Assembly (NCBI RefSeq): GCF_002741035.1
Contig: NZ_CP016808.1
Span: 3,038,001 to 3,102,000 of the forward strand
Direction: 5' to 3'
Origin: Paenibacillus sp. BIHB 4019
Lineage (GTDB): Bacteria > Bacillota > Bacilli > Paenibacillales > Paenibacillaceae
DNA: 64,000 nucleotides
Shown: piece after piece, positions 17,694 through 29,736 of the stretch
How the letters are laid out: each line of letters starts with the position of its first letter
Position numbering within the stretch: position 1 is the first letter of the stretch
Position numbers and translations under genes: made by a program
The notes under the pieces: model-generated
Seen by the model: only the letters and a program-made list of their open reading frames with translations
The model's database searches: none
Told to the model about the DNA's origin: nothing

Positions 17694-19439
17694 ATGAAAA
17701 TCAGACATCCGTTTTTTTATCGCACGCTCCGCTTTAAGCTTTTGTTCGGCTTCCTGCTGCTTGTCATTCCGATTGTATCCTTCATGATCTACAACAATCT
17801 GTATGCGATTAATGTCGTACGGAATCAGGTCGCCCAGTCCAATAAAAATCTGATCAGCCTCTATATGGGTCAAATTGACCGCAACTTGGAGGATGTGGAG
17901 AAATATTTGTTTAATATAGCGGCGATGGAGACGGGCCTGCTCGTACTGGAGCAGCCGCGCGAGCAAAATCCCGACAGCTATACGTTCGAGAAAATCCAGC
18001 TCAGCAACCAAATGAGAAAGGAACTGCCCAATTATAAGTCGATGGACATCTTTTTCATTTACTCGCCGGTGAACGATGATATGATGAGCGTGTTCAGCAT
18101 AGTCCCGGATTATGCTACCCGAGCCGCGATGGAGCAGGACATTTTAGATCATATCAAGCTTGCGAAGAAGCCGCTTGAGAAGGACTGGTTCGTCCAGCAT
18201 ATGGCTGACGGTGATTATTTAGCCTATGTCATTCAATACGGCGACATTTATATAGGCGCGATGGGCAATGTCGATCAGTTGATGGTACCGCTGCATTTAA
18301 TTGATTTGGGTGAAAATGGCCGGGCCTTTCTGACGGATGACCGTATGAAGCCCATTATCGATACGCCGCTGGATGGCGGCATTTCGATTGAACCAAGCGG
18401 CAGCGGGAATGAAGGCTACCAGCTTACGGGAAGCGATGACCAATTTATCGCAGTCGGCGAGCGCTCCTCGCGAGGCCGCTTCGGGCTTGTCGCCCTTATT
18501 CCCGACAGCGTTGTGCTGCAGAAGCTTCCCTTTCTGCGCAGCATCGTCTCGCTCATCTCCTTTGGAGCGCTGATCATTTTGCCGATTATTTTGCTGCTGC
18601 TGCGCAAGCTGGTGCTTGTTCCAGTCAATCGCATTATTATGGCGATGCGCCGCATCGAGGATGGCAATCTCGATGTGCGGATTACGAAACCGTCCTCCAC
18701 GTTCGAATTTGAGGTGATGAACGAATCGTTCAACCGCATGATTACGCAAATTCAGGAGCTCAAGGTCAATGTGCTGGAGGAGCAGCTGAATAACAAAAAA
18801 GCACAGCTTAAGCATTTGCAGCTGCAAATCAATCCCCATTTTTTTCTTAACTCGCTTAACATTGTTTATAATTTGGCCCAGGTGAAGGATTTTCATCTTA
18901 TTCAGGAAATGACGCATTGCCTGGTCCAATATTTCCGGTTTATGTTCCGCAGCAATCTGTCGTTCGTGTCTCTGTCTGATGAGCTTGCCCATACGATGAA
19001 TTATTTACGCATTCAGGAAATGCGCTTTCCGGGCGATTTGACCTTCGCTTTCCATACAGATGACAGTCTTGGCAGGGTGCCTATCCCGCCGCTAGTCATT
19101 CAATCGTTTGTGGAAAATACAATTAAGCATGCGGTAAATACGGATACGCAGGTTCACATTGCCGTTACTGCCAAAGCGCACAATGAAGATACGCTTTATG
19201 TCCGCATCGAGGACACGGGGGAAGGCTTCCCGCCGCAGGTGCTGGCACTTCTCCAGCGAGATATGGAGCTGAGCAATGAAGAAGGCGATCATATCGGCAT
19301 TCAAAATGTGAAGCAGCGGCTCGGGCTGCTGTATCAAGACGCAGCACGCATGGCGCTTAGCGGCAGCTCTGGTCAAGGGGCGGTCGTAGAGCTGTGGCTG
19401 CCGATGCAACCAGAAGAGACAGGGGGACGACGAGGATGA
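17694..19439 (+). CDS. YesM-family sensor histidine kinase
   Basis: 581 residues. Two membrane segments (about 18-38 and 283-305) bracket an extracytoplasmic sensor region of about 240 residues; a HAMP domain follows. The Pfam His_kinase motif INPHFFLNSLNIVYNLAQ places the phospho-accepting His near 382, and the ATPase domain has VENTIKHAVN (N box) and EDTGEGFP (G1 box). YesM kinases usually sense carbohydrates or cell-wall signals and control adjacent transporters. Its stop overlaps the start of the response-regulator gene. Confidence 0.9.
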   Translation: MKIRHPFFYRTLRFKLLFGFLLLVIPIVSFMIYNNLYAINVVRNQVAQSNKNLISLYMGQIDRNLEDVEKYLFNIAAMETGLLVLEQPREQNPDSYTFEKIQLSNQMRKELPNYKSMDIFFIYSPVNDDMMSVFSIVPDYATRAAMEQDILDHIKLAKKPLEKDWFVQHMADGDYLAYVIQYGDIYIGAMGNVDQLMVPLHLIDLGENGRAFLTDDRMKPIIDTPLDGGISIEPSGSGNEGYQLTGSDDQFIAVGERSSRGRFGLVALIPDSVVLQKLPFLRSIVSLISFGALIILPIILLLLRKLVLVPVNRIIMAMRRIEDGNLDVRITKPSSTFEFEVMNESFNRMITQIQELKVNVLEEQLNNKKAQLKHLQLQINPHFFLNSLNIVYNLAQVKDFHLIQEMTHCLVQYFRFMFRSNLSFVSLSDELAHTMNYLRIQEMRFPGDLTFAFHTDDSLGRVPIPPLVIQSFVENTIKHAVNTDTQVHIAVTAKAHNEDTLYVRIEDTGEGFPPQVLALLQRDMELSNEEGDHIGIQNVKQRLGLLYQDAARMALSGSSGQGAVVELWLPMQPEETGGRRG

Positions 19440-21064
19440 GACAGCTGTTAATAGTCGATGATGAGCGGCATGCGGTACGGGGCATTAAGGCAGGCGTCGA
19501 ATGGGAGGAGCTTGGCATATCGGTCGTGCATGAAGCTTACAATATCCGAACGGCTAAGGAAATTATGAGCGACAGCAAAATCGATGTGCTTATTTGCGAT
19601 ATTGAAATGCCGCAGGGCAACGGCTTCGAGCTGCTCGATTGGGTGAAAATCCATTACCCGCAGACGGAGGCGATGTTTCTTACTTGCCATGCGGATTTCT
19701 CCTATGCGCAAAAAGCGATTCAGCTAGGCAGCTGCGATTATATGCTCAAGCCCGTCCGTTACCCCGAGCTGGCCAGCACGGTCAAGCGCGCGCTGGACAA
19801 GCTGGCGAAAGCCGATCATGATCGCGAGAAGCTGCAATTCGCAGACATGTACGAGCATTATTACCGGCTGTGGGAATCGTACCAGCCGATGTTTATGGAG
19901 CGCTTCTGGCAGGATCTGCTTAGCCGCTCGATTCCTTCGACGAAGGATGGAATTCGCGAGGCGCTGGCGAAGCATAACATTGCTTATGAGGAACTGCCGC
20001 TCTATAAGCCGGTGCTCATTAGCGTTCAGCGCTGGCATAAGGAGCTGACGCTGCGCGAGGAGAAGATTATGGAATATGCGCTGCGCAATTCATTTGAGGA
20101 AATGATACTCGCGAAATCCGGGCTGGGACGAATTATTCAGGTGCGCAGCGGGGCACTGCTCGCGCTGCTGCCTATTCGCCAGGAGGGGGAAGGCGAGCAG
20201 CTGCATGAGCAGATCGATTCCTATATCGAGGCGTGCAACCGTTATTTTTTCTGCGACTTATGCTGCTATATGGGAAGCTCAGTACCTGTAGAGGAAATAT
20301 GCGAGATGTACGAGCAGCTCGTTGAGATGGAGTCGCGCAATGTAACGCGCACGAACGAAAGGCTTAGTCCCGTCAATTGCGGCATCAGCACGGATGTTGC
20401 CCCGCTTCCTGTGATGAGCGGCTGGGCGGAAATGCTCAAGCTCGGCTGCGGGAAGGAAATGCTGGAGGAAATCGCTCAATACTTGGATGGCGTGAAACAG
20501 TCGGGGCAGGCGGATGCCAAGTGGCTGCGCAGCTTTTATGAGGATTTTCTGCAAATGGTGCATCAGGTGCTGCATGCGAAGGGACTGCGGGCGCATCAGG
20601 TATTTTCCGCAATGGTATTGATGAAGCGGGTAGATGCCGTAACCCGGTCTATTACTGACTTGTCGGAGTGGGTAGCTGTGCTCATTCATGAGGTCAGCGG
20701 CAATCTGAATAGCGTAGATGAGACGCAGACCGTCGTCGACAAGGCCAAGCATTACATCGCCAAGCATATGAGCGACGATTTATCGCGTGAGGATATTGCC
20801 AGCCATGTATGCCTGCATCCGGATTATTTGGCCCGCCTGTTCAAGAAGGACACAGGGCTGACAATTTCCGAATATTTGCTGCAGGAGCGGGTAGCGCTCG
20901 CGAAGCAAATGCTGGCGAAGACGGAGCTGGCGATTACAAGCATTGCCTATGAGCTGGGCTACGGCAACTATTCGCATTTTTCGAAAATGTTCAAAAAAGC
21001 GACTTCGGTCGGGCCGCAGGAATATCGCAAGCTCCAGCAAAGTGGGCAGGCAAAGGGAAGCTGA
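19436..21064 (+). CDS. YesN-family response regulator (receiver plus AraC DNA-binding domain)
   Basis: I start at ATG 19436, which overlaps the kinase stop in an ATGA junction. The 542-residue product has a receiver domain with the phospho-acceptor Asp near 55 (VLICDIEMPQGNGFELL) and Lys in LKPVRYPEL near 106, a long middle region, and a C-terminal AraC domain with two helix-turn-helix motifs (EDIASHVCLHPDYLARLFKK, then TSIAYELGYGNYSHFSKMFK). It should act with the upstream kinase. The likeliest target class is a sugar transporter; the nearest is the operon at 26235, beyond the peptide island. Confidence 0.9.
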   Translation: MRQLLIVDDERHAVRGIKAGVEWEELGISVVHEAYNIRTAKEIMSDSKIDVLICDIEMPQGNGFELLDWVKIHYPQTEAMFLTCHADFSYAQKAIQLGSCDYMLKPVRYPELASTVKRALDKLAKADHDREKLQFADMYEHYYRLWESYQPMFMERFWQDLLSRSIPSTKDGIREALAKHNIAYEELPLYKPVLISVQRWHKELTLREEKIMEYALRNSFEEMILAKSGLGRIIQVRSGALLALLPIRQEGEGEQLHEQIDSYIEACNRYFFCDLCCYMGSSVPVEEICEMYEQLVEMESRNVTRTNERLSPVNCGISTDVAPLPVMSGWAEMLKLGCGKEMLEEIAQYLDGVKQSGQADAKWLRSFYEDFLQMVHQVLHAKGLRAHQVFSAMVLMKRVDAVTRSITDLSEWVAVLIHEVSGNLNSVDETQTVVDKAKHYIAKHMSDDLSREDIASHVCLHPDYLARLFKKDTGLTISEYLLQERVALAKQMLAKTELAITSIAYELGYGNYSHFSKMFKKATSVGPQEYRKLQQSGQAKGS

Positions 21065-21097
21065 TTTGCCCCCTTTCCTCTTACGAATCTAAAATAG

Positions 21098-21175
21098 CCC
21101 TTCAGTTCCACGGGTAGCGAGGCGTATGGCAAGCTAGTAAGCCATCTCCCATCCGCTGTGGAATGGAGGGTTTTG
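21098..21175 (+). terminator. structured hairpin with T-tract, terminator or RNA leader
   Basis: An imperfect outer stem (around 21098-21111 with 21158-21170, core TTCCAC/GTGGAA), a middle stem AGCG/CGCT and an inner stem ATGGC/GCCAT stack into one element of about 73 bases followed by TTTTG. It could simply end the two-component operon, but its length and internal loops are more elaborate than the other terminators in this window, and it precedes the exporter gene. Confidence 0.45.
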
Positions 21176-21277
21176 TGCGTTTACCAAAAAGCATCCGGGC
21201 GGCTGCGAATTAGTATTGCTTTTTTTCCAGTATTCAACTATAAATAGATCAGACTTAGGGCGGAGGTGCTGGCGGAT

Positions 21278-23422
21278 TTGCAAGCAATGATCAAAATAAT
21301 GCGCCGATTTGCCGAATACAAGCTGCTGAGCAGCGTATTCTTATTCACACTATTAATAGAAGTAGCCTATACAGTGGCTTCGCCGCTTAGCTTGAAATAT
21401 TTGGTGGATGAAGCTTTTACACCGCGAGACTTTCAGGCGTTTATTATCATTATGCTTATTTTGCTAGGCGGGGGCATCTTGAATGTCATTGCCGGTGCAG
21501 TGTCGGACTATTCATTAGGCAAGCTGGCTGGAGAGGTCGTTCGCAAGCTGCGAACGGAGCTGTTTGCTCATATCCAGCTCCAGTCCTTGCCTTTCTACGA
21601 GCGTTATCGGGTTGGTGATTTAGTGACCCGCTTCTCGGCTGATATGGGCTCCATTGAACGGGTGATTCGCGGCTCCAGCCCGATGCTGCTCAAAGAATTG
21701 CTTGCTGTAGCGCTTGGGCTTATTATGCTGTTTACACTGGAATGGAAGCTGACGCTTGCCATGCTCGGGGGCTCGGTTCTCATGTTTGTGCTGCCGCAGC
21801 TTGTGCAGAAGCGCTCGGAGCGGGCGAATCGGGAGTACAAGGAGGCGCAGGAGCGCTTCTCCAATATGATCGATGAGATGGCCAAGGGGCACAAAACGAT
21901 TCGGGGCCTGCATCAGCAAAGCCGGTTTCGCATAAGGGGCGACAACAAAATTACGGCTTTGTTTAAGACAGGCATGAATCTTCATATTAGTAACTCTTTA
22001 ATGGAACGGCTGCCTTTAACGGCTTTGCTGCTACTCAATGGAATTATGATGGGCTTCGGCGGTTATTTAATTTTTCATGATGCGATGACTGTTGGCGGCT
22101 TTATCGCCTTCTTCACCTTGTTTATGAGCGTGGGGCAGTCGGGCTCGAATCTGGCCTTTCTCGTTCCCCAATTAATCGAATCAAACATCAGCTTCCAGCG
22201 TATCGATGAAATGATGGCCTGCAAGCCAGATTTGCCAGCAGCCGGGCACCCTGCATTACTGCCGGACACGAGCTTATCCCTGCGCATGGAACAGGTCACC
22301 TTTGGCTACAACGCGGGCATTCCGCAGCTGAAAGATGTCAGCCTCCAGATCGAAGCTGGCAGCTATGTTGCTTTCGTTGGCCCAAGCGGATCGGGCAAAA
22401 GCACAGCGCTCCAGCTGTTATCCCGCTTTTATGATCCCCAGCAGGGAAAAATATTTATCCAAGATGTCCCCCTTCAGGACATTAGCGAAGCCTCGCTTAG
22501 ACAGCACGCTGCGCTTGTTTCGCAGGACACATTTTTGTTCCATATGACGGTGAGGGAAAACCTGCTGCTTGGCGACGATATCGCGGAAGCGGACATGATT
22601 GCAGCTGCGAAGCAGGCGGGCATCCACGACACCATAGCAGGCTGGCCGGATGGCTACGACACCTGGATTCGCCATGAAGGCGGCTCCTTATCAGGCGGGG
22701 AGCGGCAGCGTATTGCCATTGCACGCGCTCTGCTTCGCAGGCCGCAGCTGCTGCTGCTTGATGAAGTAACATCGGCGCTGGACCCGGCAGCTGAGGCGGA
22801 TATTAACCACCTTATTGAACAATTAAAGGGTACTCAGACAATCGTAGCAGTCACCCACCGTCTCTCTTCTGTCGTAAATGCGGATCGAATTTTTGTATTT
22901 CAGGGCGGTCAAGTGGCAGAGAGCGGTTCCCATCAGCAGCTGATTAGGGAGCAAGGGCTTTACAGCAGCCTATGGGAGAAGCAGCATGGCTTCCATGTAT
23001 CGGGAGATGGACGTTATGCGTCGGTGAGAGGAGAGCGGCTTGCGAAGCTGCCGTTTTTTGCCGGAATGGGTCCCGAGCTGCTGGAAGGCGCAGCTGAATT
23101 ATTCACCTCCGAAACGTGCAGGGAAGGCGAAGCGGTTGTACGGGAAGGCGAGGAGGGCGATAAGTTTTATATTATCGTTCGCGGCATTTTTGAAATATGG
23201 AAGATGTTTGAGGGTCAAGAGGATAAGAAGGTAGCGGTATTGCAGGACGGCGACCATTTCGGAGAAATTGCCCTGCTGCGGAACATTCCGCGCACTGCCA
23301 CGGTAAAGGCAGCCGGTTCCGGCGTCCTGCTGTCGATGCGGCGCGAAGCGTTCCATCGGCTGACGAAGGAGCATCCGCAGCTGCTGCATATGCTGGAGCA
23401 AACGCTTCAGCAAAGAATATAG
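21278..23422 (+). CDS. ABC exporter (membrane plus ATPase domains) with C-terminal cyclic-nucleotide-binding domain
   Basis: I favour TTG 21278, eleven bases after GGAGG; GTG 21266 overlaps that site and ATG 21287 is farther away. The product (about 714 residues) has an exporter-type membrane domain (about 15-310), then an ATPase domain with Walker A GPSGSGKST, signature LSGGERQRIAIARAL, Walker B LLLLDEVTSALD and the switch His in VTHR. From about 590 it continues into a cNMP-binding fold (FGEIALLRNIPRTATV phosphate-binding cassette). It has no N-terminal C39 peptidase, so it would not itself cleave a leader. It heads the GNAT/peptide genes, separated from the next by 55 bases, and is the likely exporter for their product. 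Confidence 0.88.
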   Translation: MQAMIKIMRRFAEYKLLSSVFLFTLLIEVAYTVASPLSLKYLVDEAFTPRDFQAFIIIMLILLGGGILNVIAGAVSDYSLGKLAGEVVRKLRTELFAHIQLQSLPFYERYRVGDLVTRFSADMGSIERVIRGSSPMLLKELLAVALGLIMLFTLEWKLTLAMLGGSVLMFVLPQLVQKRSERANREYKEAQERFSNMIDEMAKGHKTIRGLHQQSRFRIRGDNKITALFKTGMNLHISNSLMERLPLTALLLLNGIMMGFGGYLIFHDAMTVGGFIAFFTLFMSVGQSGSNLAFLVPQLIESNISFQRIDEMMACKPDLPAAGHPALLPDTSLSLRMEQVTFGYNAGIPQLKDVSLQIEAGSYVAFVGPSGSGKSTALQLLSRFYDPQQGKIFIQDVPLQDISEASLRQHAALVSQDTFLFHMTVRENLLLGDDIAEADMIAAAKQAGIHDTIAGWPDGYDTWIRHEGGSLSGGERQRIAIARALLRRPQLLLLDEVTSALDPAAEADINHLIEQLKGTQTIVAVTHRLSSVVNADRIFVFQGGQVAESGSHQQLIREQGLYSSLWEKQHGFHVSGDGRYASVRGERLAKLPFFAGMGPELLEGAAELFTSETCREGEAVVREGEEGDKFYIIVRGIFEIWKMFEGQEDKKVAVLQDGDHFGEIALLRNIPRTATVKAAGSGVLLSMRREAFHRLTKEHPQLLHMLEQTLQQRI

Positions 23423-23477
23423 CGCAGCGGCAGAGCAGAGCGGGAACATTTTCAGGTGCAGAGAGGGGGGATTTAAG

Positions 23478-23996
23478 GTGGCAATGGCGTATTTTAAACG
23501 GTGTGAAAATGATGAGGATTATGCAAAGGCCAGCTTGTTTCTATTGAAGCACAGGCGGGATTTGCATCCCGCTTATACGACAATGGACACGTTGTCGCTG
23601 CTGTACGCTTATTTGACAGAGGGACAGATCATTGTAGGATTGGATGAGCTGCACCAGATAAATAGCATTTCCGGTTTTTATTATGGGACGCCGGAGCAGG
23701 ATTTTCAGAATAAAGCAGTAGTTTTTGTGGATATGGTCATTGTTGAGCAAAAGCATCGGGGAACGCGCTTGTTTGCAGAAGGGCTGAATTTTCTAGTCCA
23801 TCATGTGTTGGAGAGTCGACCGGAGGTACAGGAGCTGAGCCTCGCAGCCTTGTCGGAAAATAAGCGGCTTTGCCGGATGTATGCCAAGTTTGTACAAGAA
23901 AAGTACAAGCGCGAGGGTGCGCTTGGAGAAGAAACGGTTTTTAGCGGTGAAATTAGAAAAATTGGTACTATGCTAAGAAAAACCAATCCAGTATAA
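23478..23996 (+). CDS. GNAT-fold acyltransferase-like protein 1
   Basis: 172 residues. The central segment (VVFVDMVIVEQKHRGTRLFA) has the beta-strand followed by a degenerate acetyl-CoA-binding motif A (KHRGTRLFAEGLN), and the C-terminal half ends in a GNAT-like helix/strand pattern. The block RGTRLFAxGLN is shared with the product of 24140-24667, so the two are paralogues. The start may be GTG 23478 or ATG 23484; a G-rich ribosome site precedes both. It lies between the exporter and the first small peptide gene, which suggests it modifies or otherwise serves the peptide. The acyl donor and the target are unknown. Confidence 0.68.
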   Translation: MAMAYFKRCENDEDYAKASLFLLKHRRDLHPAYTTMDTLSLLYAYLTEGQIIVGLDELHQINSISGFYYGTPEQDFQNKAVVFVDMVIVEQKHRGTRLFAEGLNFLVHHVLESRPEVQELSLAALSENKRLCRMYAKFVQEKYKREGALGEETVFSGEIRKIGTMLRKTNPV

Positions 23997-24038
23997 TCGT
24001 TTTTGTAGGAAAAATTATCTAGGAATGGAGGCGGACAA

Positions 24039-24140
24039 ATGATTCCACCAATCGGATTTGGCAACAAAGACACCAAAAAAGGCAGCGGTTTCGGCAAGAT
24101 TGTTAAGGTTAATGAAGCATTGAGAGCCCAAGCGAACTAA
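24039..24140 (+). CDS. small peptide 1 (33 residues), candidate modified and exported product
   Basis: ATG 24039 follows a GGAGG ribosome site by seven bases. The peptide begins MIPPIGFG, contains KKGSGFGKIV and NEALR, and carries five lysines. Its stop TAA shares a base with the ATG of the next GNAT gene, so the two are translationally coupled. A second peptide at 24808-24906 matches it at 26 of 32 residues, with nine synonymous codon changes, which argues for selection on the protein. It has no signal peptide and no double-glycine leader. I know no characterised family that matches. Confidence 0.75.
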   Translation: MIPPIGFGNKDTKKGSGFGKIVKVNEALRAQAN

Positions 24141-24667
24141 TGTCGTTTATATTTCGTCCCTGTGCGCTTGAAATGGATGAAGAGGCGTACGCTGCGTTTC
24201 TGATTCAGCATCATGCTGAACTGAATCTGCCTTATTCCTTCCCGATGAAGCTAAGCTTTATGGGAGGGCCGCTCATTTTGGGAAAAGGCCTGCTGCTTTT
24301 TAGTGAGGAGCCTTATGAGATTGCAGGCGCTGCGGGCTTCGTCTGCGGGACGGGCGAGCATGATTATGAGGATCAGCATATTTGCCAGATCGAGATTGCT
24401 TTTATCCGCAAGGAATATCGTGGCACCAGGCTGTTTGCTCACGGCTTGAATGCGCTCATTGAATTAATGAAGAAATCAAGCCCTGACGTCCAACAGGTAC
24501 AGTTTTGGGTGAGGGCGGATGATCGCCAGCTTGACAAGCTGCTGTCCAAATTTACAGCGCTGCGAGACGCATCGAAGTCACCCGTAATTCATCTTATGCT
24601 TTACAAAATCCCCTTTAGCGAGCTCGAAGGCTACGTTCAGAAACGAACTGCTAGGACTCGCCCCTAA
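24140..24667 (+). CDS. GNAT-fold acyltransferase-like protein 2
   Basis: 175 residues. The core CQIEIAFIRKEYRGTRLFAHGLNALIEL is the counterpart of the motif A region in the product of 23478-23996, here split by no gaps over the RGTRLFAxGLN block. The first 60 residues differ more, which may reflect peptide specificity. The start codon overlaps the stop of peptide 1, so peptide and enzyme are made together. A frame-shifted relic of a third copy lies behind peptide 2. The enzyme reaction is inferred from fold only. Confidence 0.68.
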   Translation: MSFIFRPCALEMDEEAYAAFLIQHHAELNLPYSFPMKLSFMGGPLILGKGLLLFSEEPYEIAGAAGFVCGTGEHDYEDQHICQIEIAFIRKEYRGTRLFAHGLNALIELMKKSSPDVQQVQFWVRADDRQLDKLLSKFTALRDASKSPVIHLMLYKIPFSELEGYVQKRTARTRP

Positions 24668-24807
24668 CCTTTGATAATGAAGGTTATCCGTATGTATTAC
24701 TTTCCCAAACAGCTAATCTATTATGAAGCAAGCTTTTGATTGTTTAGCGCTCTCAGAGGCGCTTCCTAAAAGCGATAGTGAAATGAAGCACGAACGGAGG
24801 CGAGCAC

Positions 24808-24906
24808 ATGATCCCGCCAATCGGTCTTGGCAAGAAAGATATCAAAAAAGGCAGCGGTTTTGGCAAAATCGTTCAGGCAAATGAAGCCTTGCGAGTACAA
24901 GCGTAG
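24808..24906 (+). CDS. small peptide 2 (32 residues), paralogue of peptide 1
   Basis: ATG 24808 lies seven bases after CGGAGG. The peptide begins MIPPIGLG, keeps KKGSGFGKIV and NEALR, and differs from peptide 1 at six positions, mostly conservative. Unlike peptide 1 it is followed by a broken GNAT-like sequence rather than an intact gene. A weak promoter-like pair (TTGATA at 24671, TATTAC at 24695, 18-base gap) lies upstream, so it may be transcribed separately or by read-through. Confidence 0.72.
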   Translation: MIPPIGLGKKDIKKGSGFGKIVQANEALRVQA

Positions 24907-25036
24907 AGGCTGCACATCCTCTTAGGCTAAAGAAGCTTGCGATGGCTAAAAATTGAATTTTGCGTTTCATATCCGGCTTCATGATGAACTGAATTCGCCA
25001 AATATTCCCTATGGAGCTGAGCTTCATGGGGAATAT
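24907..25036 (+). pseudogene. decayed third GNAT gene behind peptide 2
   Basis: Bases 24936-25036 align with codons 10-43 of the intact GNAT gene at 24140. Shared runs include CTTG..ATGG near 24936, GCGTTT at 24962, TGAACTGAAT at 24984, and AGCTT.ATGGG near 25017. The distance from the peptide stop to the GCGTTT landmark is 56 bases here and 54 in the intact copy, so the layout is the same. A two-base deletion near 25005 breaks the frame, stop codons precede it, and homology fades after 25036. Confidence 0.65.
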
Positions 25037-25169
25037 TTATTTTCTTTCCCAAATAACCGATATCCTTCAAGTGGTAAGCTTATTATAGATTGTGTCATAT
25101 AGTGGCCTGCCTGAAAGAAGCCTGTTCTGTTCAAGCTATTGTACGGGGGCCAGAAGAATATAAATGAAT

Positions 25170-25186
25170 CTCATTAGGCTAATGAG
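25170..25186. promoter_or_regulatory. palindrome just upstream of phosphotransferase ribosome site
   Basis: CTCATTAG and CTAATGAG form a perfect eight-base dyad with a one-base centre, ending two bases before GGAGGAGG. It could be an operator or a hairpin limiting translation. Confidence 0.35.
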
Positions 25187-25204
25187 CTGGAGGAGGTAGG
25201 CATA

Positions 25205-26011
25205 GTGACTGAGGAAGAAGTATTAAGAGGCGGGAATGTTAATCACATTATTCGAAAGGAAAATACTGTTCTCCGACCCACTGGTTATTGGAGTCATAGT
25301 GTTCATGAACTGCTCAAACATTTAGAGAAGCAAGGGTTTGAGGGAGCGCCAAGATTTCTCGGAATCGACGATTCTGATCGTGAAATATTAACATTCGTTC
25401 CAGGTGAATCTCCAGGTAACGATTACCCTGAACTTGAATCTTACATGTGGTCGGATGAAACGCTTGTGGGTCTAGCAAGTCTTTTACGGCGTTTCCATGA
25501 TGCGACTGTAGGATCTAATCTTATAACAAAGAGCAAATGGCAGCTTAGTTATATTGACGATCGTGAGCACGAAGTGATCTGTCATAATGACGCAGCGTTG
25601 TACAATGTGGTTTTTCAAGAGGGGATTCCTGTGTCGCTGATTGATTTTGACATGGCTGGCCCCGGTCCGCGCATGTGGGACATTGCGTATGCTCTTTACA
25701 CATCAGTTCCGCTTGCGAGCTTCGCACCAGACCATTCTTCGGGAACAACGGTAGAGTATCAATCGAATGTACACTCAGCTGAGCGCCGTCGGCGGATACA
25801 GTTGTTTTTTGATTCGTATGGAACTCCCGTCCCTAACGAGCTTTGTAAGTGGATTATTCAACGATTGACTACCATGTATGATACGTTGAGAAAGGGTGCT
25901 GCCGAAGGAAATCTTGCCTTTAAGAAAATGGTTGATGAGGGTCACTTGGCCCACTATGAGAGCGAGATTCAATTTGTAACCGATCATTTCAATGATTGGA
26001 TATTGAATTAA
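25205..26011 (+). CDS. aminoglycoside phosphotransferase (APH) fold protein
   Basis: 268 residues starting at GTG behind GGAGGAGG. The catalytic loop is HNDAALYNVVF (the HxDxxxxN pattern near 127) and the metal-binding Asp lies in LIDFDMAGPGPRMWDIAYAL near 145. The N-terminal ATP-binding lobe is short. Members phosphorylate small molecules such as aminoglycosides, choline or sugars; the substrate cannot be read from sequence. It is downstream of the peptide island and ends before a strong terminator, so it may be part of that island (self-protection is one option) or an independent gene. Confidence 0.78.
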   Translation: MTEEEVLRGGNVNHIIRKENTVLRPTGYWSHSVHELLKHLEKQGFEGAPRFLGIDDSDREILTFVPGESPGNDYPELESYMWSDETLVGLASLLRRFHDATVGSNLITKSKWQLSYIDDREHEVICHNDAALYNVVFQEGIPVSLIDFDMAGPGPRMWDIAYALYTSVPLASFAPDHSSGTTVEYQSNVHSAERRRRIQLFFDSYGTPVPNELCKWIIQRLTTMYDTLRKGAAEGNLAFKKMVDEGHLAHYESEIQFVTDHFNDWILN

Positions 26012-26038
26012 ATATTAAGCTAGCATTATTTCAAAAAG

Positions 26039-26092
26039 CCAGCGGTATGCTAGAACTTTATTTTCCAGTTCTAGCATACCGCTGGTTTTTTT
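26039..26092 (+). terminator. strong Rho-independent terminator
   Basis: A perfect 19-bp stem (26039-26057 with 26067-26085) around a nine-base loop is followed by seven T. It separates the peptide/phosphotransferase region from the sugar transporter operon. Confidence 0.92.
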
Positions 26093-26234
26093 GTGTTGGC
26101 GCCAGTCTCATACGTATTATTCGCCCCGTTCCTTCAAGATGTCGGAAGATGACAACGAAGAAGTCGGTTTAGTCGTAGTGTGCTTGCCCGCGAAAAACTA
26201 AGATAGAGGTAGAAGAAGTGAAGGGGGAACCGCG

Positions 26235-27218
26235 ATGGCGACGACTGCAAGCACAGCGACAGCAAAACCAGCGGAGCAGCAGACGGAAGTAAGACGGGCA
26301 CAAAATCCCGTATTGAAAAGGCTGAAACGTTACGCACCATTATTCATTATGATTATTCCCGGAGTCATCTATTTGTTCATTAACAACTACTTGCCGATGC
26401 TGGGGCTCATTATTGCGTTCAAGGATGTCAACTTTGCCAAAGGCATTTTGGCCAGCGATTGGATCGGCCTTAAAAACTTTGAATACTTGTTCAAAACCGA
26501 AGATGCCTGGATTATTACCCGCAATACGCTGCTCTACAACATATCTTTTATTATACTAAACCTGATTATAGCGGTGGGCATTGCCATCTTGCTTAATGAA
26601 GTGAAGAAAAAAGTGGCCGCCCGTTTTTATCAAAGCATCGTGCTCATTCCTTATTTGATCTCAATGGTTATTGTCGGTTATTTGGTACTCGCCATGCTGA
26701 GCGGTGAAACCGGATTCATCAATAAACAGATCCTTCCGCTCTTCGGAATTGATCCAATCTCATGGTATAGCGAGCCTAAATATTGGCCGATCATTCTAGT
26801 CATCGTCAACGTTTGGAAAAATGTCGGCTACCTCTGCATCATCTATCTTGCAGCGATCATCGGCATTGATCCGGAATATTATGAAGCCGCTACCATCGAC
26901 GGAGCAGGCAAATGGCGCCAAATTACGCAAATTACGATTCCGCTTATTGCACCCGTAATTACGATCATGACGCTGCTGCAAATTGGACGTATTTTCTACT
27001 CGGATTTTGGTTTATTCTATCAAGTACCACTGAACACTGGCGAGCTGCTTTCCACAACGAATGTTGTTGATACGTATGTGTACCGTGCGCTCATTAATCT
27101 TGGCGATATCGGGATGTCCTCAGCTGCAGGCTTGTACCAATCCGTTGTTGGCTTTGTGCTCGTGCTGCTGTCCAACTATATTGTAAGTAAACGAAACCGC
27201 GACAATGCGCTGTTCTAG
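26235..27218 (+). CDS. sugar ABC transporter permease, LplB/UgpA type
   Basis: 327 residues behind AAGGGGGA. A polar N-terminal tail precedes six membrane segments, the first being YAPLFIMIIPGVIYLFI. The ATPase-contact EAA loop reads EYYEAATIDGAGKWRQITQI near residue 220. This type works with the permease encoded 12 bases downstream and the binding protein after it. No ATPase gene is present; these systems commonly share a general MsmX-like ATPase encoded elsewhere. Confidence 0.9.
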   Translation: MATTASTATAKPAEQQTEVRRAQNPVLKRLKRYAPLFIMIIPGVIYLFINNYLPMLGLIIAFKDVNFAKGILASDWIGLKNFEYLFKTEDAWIITRNTLLYNISFIILNLIIAVGIAILLNEVKKKVAARFYQSIVLIPYLISMVIVGYLVLAMLSGETGFINKQILPLFGIDPISWYSEPKYWPIILVIVNVWKNVGYLCIIYLAAIIGIDPEYYEAATIDGAGKWRQITQITIPLIAPVITIMTLLQIGRIFYSDFGLFYQVPLNTGELLSTTNVVDTYVYRALINLGDIGMSSAAGLYQSVVGFVLVLLSNYIVSKRNRDNALF

Positions 27219-27230
27219 GAGGTTAGGGCC

Positions 27231-28124
27231 ATGGTAAATACGAAGGAAAAAATATTTCAAGCCGCGATTCATATTTTCTTTATCGCTGTAGTGCTCATGT
27301 GTCTAATGCCATTCGTGCTGCTGCTCACAACTTCCTTTACGAGCGAAGCGTCCATTGTCAAAGACGGTTATTCGTTATTCCCTAGCGAGTGGAGTCTGGA
27401 TGCTTACAAGTTTTTATGGAATGATGCTGAAAATATTACGCGTTCATACGGGATTACGATTTTCGTCACGTTAATTGGAACGTTCATCGGGCTGTCGATA
27501 TCCGCGCTGTTGTCCTACCCGATGTCGCGCAGCGATATGCCCATGAAAAAGCAGCTCGCCTTCTACGTCTTTTTCACGATGCTGTTCAATGGCGGACTCG
27601 TGCCGACTTATCTGATTTACACACAGGTATTCGATATGAAAAACTCTCTGCTGGCGCTAATTATTCCAGGCTTGCTGACGAACGGTTTCTTCGTCCTCAT
27701 TATGCGGACGTTTTTCCAAAATTCGATCCCGCATGCGATTATTGAATCCGCTTCTATTGACGGTGCTGGAGAATTCAAAATTTTCTTCAAGATGATTTTG
27801 CCGCTGTCGCTGCCGATCCTCGCAACGATTGGCCTTATGCAGACGATTGGCTATTGGAATGACTGGTTTAACGGGCTCATTTATATTACCGACAGCAAGC
27901 TGTTCAGTTTGCAAAACCTGCTGAACCGGATTTTGCTCAACGCCCAGTTTATTCAGAACAACGCCTCAACGCTGAATGCGGGGGAAGTAGCCAATGCGCA
28001 AATTCCGCTGGAAACGGTAAGGATGGCCATGGCGGTTATCGGCGTAGTGCCGCTGCTGTGCGCATACCCTTTTTTCCAAAAATATTTCGTCAAAGGGCTT
28101 GTTATTGGTGCCGTTAAAGGTTAA
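27231..28124 (+). CDS. sugar ABC transporter permease, LplC type
   Basis: 297 residues with six membrane segments and the EAA loop ESASIDGAGEFKIFFKMILP near residue 180. The N-terminus includes the usual long stretch LLLTTSFTSEASIVKDGYSL. It is the partner of the upstream permease in one operon (12-base gap, AGGAGG ribosome site). Confidence 0.9.
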   Translation: MVNTKEKIFQAAIHIFFIAVVLMCLMPFVLLLTTSFTSEASIVKDGYSLFPSEWSLDAYKFLWNDAENITRSYGITIFVTLIGTFIGLSISALLSYPMSRSDMPMKKQLAFYVFFTMLFNGGLVPTYLIYTQVFDMKNSLLALIIPGLLTNGFFVLIMRTFFQNSIPHAIIESASIDGAGEFKIFFKMILPLSLPILATIGLMQTIGYWNDWFNGLIYITDSKLFSLQNLLNRILLNAQFIQNNASTLNAGEVANAQIPLETVRMAMAVIGVVPLLCAYPFFQKYFVKGLVIGAVKG

Positions 28125-28200
28125 TGCTGTTAAACGTCTGGCTATTCACGGCTTTCAGCCGGTTAGCATACAAGCTTGAACAAACAGGGAGGTTGCAGAG

Positions 28201-29736
28201 ATGAGAAAACGGACAAATGGAATAGTGGCGATGCTGCTGACGGTTATGCTGGTGCTTGCAGCATGTGGCGGCAACAGCGGCGGTTCAACATCGAATGCCG
28301 GAGCAACGAATGCTGCAGGTGGAGAAACAGGCGGAGCGTCTGAACTCAAGCCTTATGAAATGACGGTGGCTTTCTTAAGCATCGGCAATACGAAGGATTT
28401 GGCTGAGGTTCAAGCCGAAGTCAATAAAATTACCCAAGCCAAAATCAATGCAACCGTTAAATTCCTTCCTATTGATATCGGGGCATGGCAGCAGCAGATG
28501 AACCTGATGCTGGCGGGCAATGAGCCGCTGGATATTCTCGTAACGGGCACAGGACTTAACTTTGGCACGCAGGCTGCTAAGGGCCAGCTCGTAGAGATGG
28601 ATGACCTCCTGGCAAAATACGGACAAGATATTCAAAAGGTTGTTGGCGGAGATGTCATCAAAGCCGGCTCCTCGAATGGCAAAATTTACGCGATTCCAAG
28701 CGTGCGCGACTGGGCAGCAGATTATGGCCTCGTTATGCGCCAAGACATCGTAGACAAATACAAAATTGATGTCAATGCGATTAAGACGCTGGATGATTTG
28801 ACGGCTGTTTACCAAACGATTAAAGACAATGAACCGGGCATGGCAGCTGTATTGCCGGAAGGCCCAAGCTTCTCGGTTATCCAATCGATGGTGGGCAGCG
28901 TCATTGACCCGCTTGGCGACGAGAATGGTGTACTGGTCGGCTTTGATGGCGAGCTGAAAGTCGTAAACTGGTACGAAACCCCTGAATATGCGAGCTTGGT
29001 GAAAAAAGCAAGAGATTGGTACAACGCGGGCTTTATTCCTAAAGATATTTCAACGAATCAAACGACTTCCGAGCAATTGATCAAGGCTAACAAGGCGTTT
29101 GCTTTCATGGCGCATATGAAGCCTGGCTACGAGAGCAAGGAGTCGCTGCTTACAGGTACACCGCTCGTTGCAGCACGTATTTCCCCAGCGATTTCGACGA
29201 CTTCCTCGATCGCTAACATTATGTTCGGCATTGCAAGAAACTCCGAGGACCCTGAGCGCGCCATGATGTTCCTGAACCTGCTTTACTCGGATGCTGACCT
29301 CATTAACCTGATCGACTACGGCATTAAAGGCAAGCACTATGAAGTGAAAGAGGGCAATATTATCGGCTTCCCGGCTGGCGTAGATTCCTCCAGCTCGACT
29401 TACAACCCGACGCATGGCTGGATGTGGGGCAATCAGTTGCTTTCCCATATTTGGGAAGGGGACAGCGCAGATTTGTGGACGAAGCTAGATGAGTTCAATA
29501 AATCGGCGGTTAAATCGAAAGCGCTGGGCTTCAGCTTTACAGCAGATCCTGTCAAAACAGAAGTGGCAGCTGTTCAGAACGTGAAGGAGCAATTCAAGAT
29601 TGGTTTGGAAAACGGTACGCTTGACCCGGATAAATATTTGCCAGAATACATCGCGAAGCTAAAATCAGCAGGCATGGATAAAATCGTGGCCGAAAAACAA
29701 AAGCAGCTGGATGAGTGGGCGGCAGCCAATAAATAA
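28201..29736 (+). CDS. sugar ABC transporter substrate-binding lipoprotein (family 1)
   Basis: 511 residues. The signal peptide ends at the lipobox VLAACGG (Cys about 21), followed by a Gly/Ser/Asn tether. The body (PYEMTVAFLSIGNTKDLAEV, MNLMLAGNEPLDILVTGTG) is typical of the LipO-type binding proteins that accompany LplB/LplC permeases. The ligand is probably an oligosaccharide, possibly a product of surface glycosidases such as the GH43 enzyme at 34261; that link is inference. Confidence 0.9.
   Translation: MRKRTNGIVAMLLTVMLVLAACGGNSGGSTSNAGATNAAGGETGGASELKPYEMTVAFLSIGNTKDLAEVQAEVNKITQAKINATVKFLPIDIGAWQQQMNLMLAGNEPLDILVTGTGLNFGTQAAKGQLVEMDDLLAKYGQDIQKVVGGDVIKAGSSNGKIYAIPSVRDWAADYGLVMRQDIVDKYKIDVNAIKTLDDLTAVYQTIKDNEPGMAAVLPEGPSFSVIQSMVGSVIDPLGDENGVLVGFDGELKVVNWYETPEYASLVKKARDWYNAGFIPKDISTNQTTSEQLIKANKAFAFMAHMKPGYESKESLLTGTPLVAARISPAISTTSSIANIMFGIARNSEDPERAMMFLNLLYSDADLINLIDYGIKGKHYEVKEGNIIGFPAGVDSSSSTYNPTHGWMWGNQLLSHIWEGDSADLWTKLDEFNKSAVKSKALGFSFTADPVKTEVAAVQNVKEQFKIGLENGTLDPDKYLPEYIAKLKSAGMDKIVAEKQKQLDEWAAANK

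Follow-up and report, generated by a model that had tools for sequence, protein, structure and literature searches.

A short peptide gene linked to a pair of GNAT-like genes, and often to an ABC exporter, in Paenibacillus and related bacteria

GNAT enzymes that lipidate lysine or ornithine residues of peptides are known (PMC9505594, PMC13060382), and a tandem-GNAT enzyme that acylates a peptide, NpuN of the nostolysamides, has been described (PMC13060382). Selidamides and nostolysamides are encoded at loci that combine a ribosomal peptide, a neighbouring GNAT-fold protein and an ABC transporter. We describe here a cassette of similar make-up in Paenibacillus sp. BIHB 4019, found in a stretch of 64,000 nucleotides (the window; contig NZ_CP016808.1, positions 3,038,001 to 3,102,000) of a genome that is a single contig of 7.25 Mb and whose closest named proteins come from P. 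algorifonticola. The cassette holds an ABC exporter, two GNAT-like genes (GNAT1 and GNAT2) and two very short genes, encoding peptide 1 and peptide 2. A sequence-only reading of the window had picked out these genes and taken the peptides to be acylated in the manner of selidamides, with emphasis on lysine, and exported. The observation itself is confirmed by the open reading frames (ORFs) and by the GGAGG-type ribosome sites that precede both peptide genes, while the interpretation is partly supported.

The comparison with described systems draws on 106 distinct peptides of 30-45 amino acids (aa) of the same type as those in the window (main-type peptides, retained by a length filter of 28-46 aa) and on 45 related exporters. 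The two GNAT genes in tandem recall the tandem GNAT of NpuN. However, in contrast to selidamides and nostolysamides (PMC9505594, PMC13060382), the peptides are too short to accommodate an NHLP or Nif11 leader, the exporters have no listed C39 protease domain, the recurrent neighbours include no lanthionine synthetase, arginase or hydroxylase, and the GNATs are two separate genes that do not keep the P-loop consensus. Neither the long leader with its Gly-Gly site nor the C39 protease-transporter that mark selidamides was found among the 106 peptides and the families listed for the 45 exporters, and the emphasis on acylation of the selidamide kind is not supported. Lipolanthines such as microvionin, described as N-terminally lipidated (PMC13060382), would share their chemistry with the present system if the N-terminus is the acceptor here, but no class III lanthipeptide synthetase occurs among the recurrent neighbours and none of the 106 main-type peptides contains a cysteine. 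Indeed, the lanthipeptide combination of a lanthionine synthetase with a Cys/Ser/Thr core is not seen, the recurrent neighbour clusters, judged by first residues and not all scanned, having revealed no such synthetase.

As for the individual proteins, N-alpha-acetyltransferases (NatC, NatE, Ard1, RimI) are about 9-15% identical to the GNATs described here, which, unlike them, lack the P-loop consensus and have a dedicated peptide partner gene. The NHLP/NHLM bacteriocin transporters are likewise ABC exporters of peptides, and the window exporter matches both of their models; however, it falls far below the curated cut-offs (305 bits against 853 for TIGR03796, 284 bits against 709 for TIGR03797) and has no peptidase domain. 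A literature search, with most subscription journals beyond its reach, found no description of a unit of peptide, GNAT pair and ABC exporter. No NCBIfam model is matched by either GNAT family (0/34 and 0/35 members), and the general GNAT models of Pfam are matched weakly, the scores of the window GNAT1 and GNAT2 falling short of the gathering score (E 0.0044 and 0.042). This agrees with the sequence-only suggestion that the system may be new.

Peptide, GNAT pair and exporter as one genetic unit

It is firmly shown that the peptide, the GNAT pair and often the exporter form one genetic unit. A profile built from 12 peptides was searched in 394 Paenibacillaceae genomes and found the peptide in 41 of them at E<1e-3 (at E<=1 the number rises to 108, many of these being chance matches). 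All 41 lie within the 77 genomes that match the GNAT2 profile (Fisher p 1e-34), and in 66 of these 77 a main-type peptide sits no more than 500 bases from the GNATs. Five of the other 11 (G004, G013, G045, G068 and G074) hold a sister type of peptide presented below, one (G332) has its peptide about 20 kb from GNAT2, and two (G383 and G384) have a GNAT2 relative and no peptide. The last three comprise a fragment (G021), a genome outside the fetched loci (G024) and one with a masked stretch (G028), where a GNAT1-type gene enters the run of N (locus L149, from about 4990).

The same linkage is seen when loci are fetched by GNAT2 alone. In 43 such loci from named genomes (Paenibacillus, Cohnella, Gracilibacillus oryzae and uncultured relatives), a peptide ORF is present in every case, GNAT1 in 41 and an exporter within 6 kb in 27, with a peptide profile trained on partly overlapping loci (G002 and L093, for instance, are one contig). 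Most of these loci show a 2-base spacing in which the peptide stop and the GNAT2 start overlap. The sequence-only reading had named the lack of a conserved peptide next to these genes in relatives as a refutation; this condition was checked and does not hold. Beyond Paenibacillaceae, a search of 398 genomes of the class detected GNAT2 at E<=1e-5 in 27, of which 21 belong to other families. Among 15 loci fetched outside the family, 11 have the peptide, ten of these in the order GNAT2-exporter-GNAT1-peptide; in the remaining four (L178, L188, L189 and L191) the peptide profile found no match, L189 having a possible ORF of 19 aa.

The main-type peptides follow a common pattern: they begin with M-[F/I/Y/V]-P, often have a central KGSGFG[K/R]I and carry N-[E/D]-x-L-R near the end. 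The acidic residue, E or D, and an R three residues later are present in 106/106 peptides, and 89 have an N directly before this acidic residue. At position 2, 93 peptides have F, I, Y, V or L, and at position 3, 85 have P. Rates of nonsynonymous (dN) and synonymous (dS) substitution reveal purifying selection among close pairs, dN/dS lying between 0 and 0.26 for the closest pairs that involve the window: peptide 1 has dN 0 and dS 0.36 against G047, and dN/dS is 0.16 for the peptide against P. algorifonticola and 0.26 for peptide 2. Some distant pairs exceed 1, and the pooled distant pairs are near saturation and were hence left uninterpreted. Since no amino acid change accompanies the silent divergence from G047, and since the peptide recurs by the same genes in dozens of species, it is more than a chance ORF.

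Peptide genes vary in number and company. Two are present in the window, in G047 and G002, and at L056 and L117, while lone copies occur at L044, L051 and L078, where the GNATs are absent within about 8 kb; at L086 the peptide is accompanied by both GNATs. The lone peptide of L044 (genome G328; upstream of 8045, minus strand) lies directly downstream of an ordinary-looking GNAT ORF with, as read by eye, the usual G-x-G/A-type loop.

A sister subsystem was found at eight loci (L136-L143), which have a diverged GNAT pair and, in six cases, an exporter. Here, an ORF of 21-29 aa with a ribosome site lies on the opposite strand, in the gap of 227-288 bases between the GNATs, and encodes M[G/A]APAC[N/S]xP in seven of the eight (for example, L136:4136-4198 and L138:4735-4797). 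These peptides were first spotted by eye, and a pattern search across all loci in the set returned only these eight. Six have no lysine. Three of the eight sister genomes (G055, G058 and G084) also carry a main-type module.

The cassette in the window, its surroundings and its regulation

The features of the window are collected in Table 1. The exporter is best started at TTG 21278, as the sequence-only reading had it, because GTG 21266 overlaps the GGAGG, and the first base of the GNAT2 ATG is also the final base of the stop codon of peptide 1 (TAATG). Peptides 1 and 2 are 81% identical, for which "near-identical" was a generous term. The "broken GNAT" reported downstream proved real to the extent of about 70 bases, a remnant of GNAT2 that aligns to bases 54-125 of that gene (76% across 72 columns; 51.8 bits, where 50 shuffles did not exceed 24.7 bits) and is overlapped by a terminator-like hairpin. 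The simplest history is that the peptide-GNAT2 unit was duplicated, after which the second GNAT2 decayed and its peptide gene, peptide 2, survived. The phosphotransferase-like gene is also present in G047 and was not found in G002.

Table 1. Positions of features of the cassette within the 64,000-nucleotide window
Feature	Position	Strand	Basis and remarks
Upstream block, near-identical across three related genomes	21210..21268	+	Alignment; promoter-like reading by eye
ABC half-exporter with C-terminal cNMP-binding domain	21278..23422	+	ORF scan and domain search; longest ORF starts at 21266
GNAT1, GNAT-like protein, 172 aa	23478..23996	+	ORF and domain search
Peptide 1, 33 aa, GGAGG ribosome site	24039..24140	+	ORF, profile search, dN/dS
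GNAT2, GNAT-fold protein, 175 aa	24140..24667	+	ORF and AlphaFold2 model
Peptide 2, 32 aa, GGAGG ribosome site	24808..24906	+	ORF; intact also in G047 and G002
Remnant of a second GNAT2 gene	24961..25030	+	Nucleotide alignment to GNAT2
Terminator-like hairpin, 18 pairs, T-rich tail, overlapping the GNAT2 remnant	25000..25038	+	Hairpin scan
Phosphotransferase-like gene (PF01636) within the cassette	25205..26011	+	Domain search; putative link to the peptide system
Cassette missing at the same place in G048	21066..26125	.	blastn: similarity ends at 21065 and restarts at 26126

The cassette splits a transporter operon, being flanked by a histidine kinase/AraC-type regulator pair (17694-21064) and by binding-protein-dependent transporter genes (26235-29736); gain here or loss elsewhere both fit. 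The AraC-type regulator of G048 is 94% identical to that of the window, and about 0.9 kb of other sequence separates the regulator and transporter genes there (locus L205, compared by blastn with window positions 20901-26400); no cassette gene was found in this sequence, and it is not a clean empty site. Without the cassette, the same spacing is 0.2 kb in G037, 0.3 kb in G026 and about 2.2 kb in G020. Since the two-component pair adjoins the transporter genes in four genomes that lack the cassette at that place, it belongs to the transporter operon and was rejected as a sensor of the peptide; a dedicated sensor/regulator pair is absent in the window. Two other candidate roles were also rejected. 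A defence system found no backing in PADLOC, which matched neither GNAT and only the ATPase and cNMP parts of the exporter, and plasmid or phage cargo found none in a tblastn search of GNAT2, which gave no match in the plasmid or phage collection.

As for transcription, the upstream block contains TTGCTT (21216-21221), 17 bases, TATAAA (21239-21244) and then the ribosome site; the promoter scan did not list this site. The block was rejected as a family-wide promoter, its best score beyond close relatives (22/32 matches) being about that of shuffles (21). A different motif, TTTACA-17-TAATCT, is found upstream in 24 of 88 modules with 11 or 12 of its 12 positions matched, a level that 0.46% of shuffles reached; the motif was noticed by eye and scored afterwards. 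A matrix, made from 22 of the sites that it later found, scored above 14 bits at 37 places in 1.83 Mb of loci that are redundant in part: 35 forward upstream of a module, one a reverse reading of the L105 site and one elsewhere (L192). The promoter-like motif, seen for instance at L099:3092-3127, has conserved spacer bases and is partly palindromic (L105). The shared motif points to what may be a common regulator.

Next to GNAT2, an OmpR-type regulator and a 7TMR-DISM kinase are divergently encoded at 12 of 142 loci. In one genus, among genomes that the searches had already brought up, an orthologous kinase (65-100% identity) is found in 7/7 genomes with the module and in 0/18 module-free genomes, four of the latter having only a 31% paralogue. 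A transglutaminase gene (PF20085) is a divergent neighbour of GNAT2 at L075, L091, L145 and L147; a spore-coat role was rejected, four of 142 loci with this gene directly beside GNAT2 being too few.

What the unit might make

The identity between GNAT1 and GNAT2 is 23%. For GNAT2, the AlphaFold2 model, with a predicted local distance difference test (pLDDT) of 91.8, is a GNAT fold and, among the families in the fold comparison, resembles NatC, NatE, Ard1 and RimI as well as others. The loop L28-P31-Y32-F34 of GNAT2 is near-invariant, and an invariant R is kept in 35/35 GNAT1 and 33/34 GNAT2 members. The exporter has ABC_membrane, ABC_tran and C-terminal cNMP_binding domains (E 1.5e-20 for the last), and 39 of the 45 related exporters, a set that includes some truncated ORFs, have the cNMP-binding domain as well.

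We put at about even the chances of the following explanation, in which the chemistry, export and role of the product are what we infer: the cassette is laterally variable and encodes a ribosomal peptide that the GNAT pair acylates and that is then exported, perhaps as a signal where the kinase is linked. The two GNATs would work together, possibly forming a heterodimer that would be the counterpart of the tandem-GNAT enzyme in nostolysamide systems, and would acylate the peptide, more likely on its N-terminal amine than on lysine. Release of the acylated peptide by the exporter would then need no leader protease, and lineages that carry the divergent 7TM histidine kinase may sense the product as a signal. 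The N-terminus is favoured as acceptor by the M-[F/I/Y/V/L] start of 93/106 peptides, the lysine-free sister peptides, the likeness to NatC, NatE, Ard1 and RimI, and the near-invariant loop of GNAT2. A signal role is perhaps natural where the kinase is linked, given its co-occurrence with the module in that genus. Several points weigh against this picture. The coenzyme A (CoA) P-loop consensus, [Q/R]-x-x-G-x-[G/A] as stated in PMC13060382, is complete in 0/35 GNAT1 (set A3) and 0/34 GNAT2 (set A4) members, and likewise in 0/20 and 0/41 members of sets A5 and A6, so acyl-CoA use by the pair is not assured, an objection tempered by the solved GNAT 3dsb, which also has F at the last P-loop position. 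Moreover, GNAT2 matches N-terminal acetyltransferases in fold no better than it matches many other GNATs, lysine occurs at least once in each of the 106 main-type peptides, and 16 of the 43 GNAT2-fetched loci have no exporter within 6 kb. Finally, the kinase lies beside GNAT2 in a minority of loci, and its co-inheritance with the module could reflect one genomic island.

Three other explanations were weighed. The peptide might stay inside the cell as a small subunit of the GNAT pair, or as its chaperone or regulator, with the GNATs making or modifying other cargo for the exporter, which would suit its conservation over the full length, with an invariant acidic residue and arginine and no hypervariable core, and its frequent coupling to GNAT2 by overlapping stop and start. 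We nevertheless think this unlikely: peptide genes have multiplied and survive away from the enzymes (copy 2 of the window, L056 and L117; the GNAT-free L044, L051 and L078), behaviour more in keeping with a precursor than with a subunit, and an unrelated peptide accompanies the sister GNAT pair. Acylation of lysine side chains, making the system a leaderless functional relative of selidamides, was the emphasis of the sequence-only reading and would fit both the lysine of every main-type peptide and the known GNATs that lipidate lysine or ornithine (PMC9505594, PMC13060382). However, no lysine column is invariant, the best reaching 81/106 peptides, and the lack of lysine in six of eight sister peptides argues against lysine acylation as the general chemistry; if the same machinery serves both types, lysine would not be a common acceptor, whereas the free N-terminus would. 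Lysine acylation is retained as a rival explanation, which we rate as quite unlikely.

FemX-like proteins and the L/F transferase move aminoacyl groups from tRNA, and the GNAT-like pair might similarly transfer a group other than an acyl from CoA, such as an aminoacyl from tRNA, the peptide being a scaffold that is extended. Such a reaction would be compatible with the incomplete P-loop of every GNAT1 and GNAT2 member, and PMC9505594 tabulates pearlins as peptide scaffolds extended by tRNA-dependent ligases. Against it, the recurrent neighbour clusters contain no further tailoring genes conserved around the loci, and a sequence search of solved structures, which distant relatives would escape, listed no such enzyme (no match for GNAT2, best E 0.032 for GNAT1), leaving this reaction improbable. 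Returning to the acylated and exported peptide, its boldest form is a new class of natural product: short leaderless N-[E/D]-x-L-R peptides, modified by a GNAT pair alone without the usual CoA P-loop, exported by a cNMP-domain ABC protein and, in some lineages, read out by a 7TM-DISM kinase, which would amount to an acyl-peptide pheromone of Paenibacillus-like bacteria, with the GAPAC-type peptides as a second class on the same machinery. In this full form, we consider it rather unlikely.

The unit offers about a hundred distinct peptides together with their partner enzymes, which tend to escape annotation because the peptides are short and no GNAT member matches an NCBIfam model. Acylation of the peptide by a pair that lacks the usual CoA loop would, if true, be new enzymology, and if the product is a signal, it would represent a new way for soil and plant bacteria to communicate.

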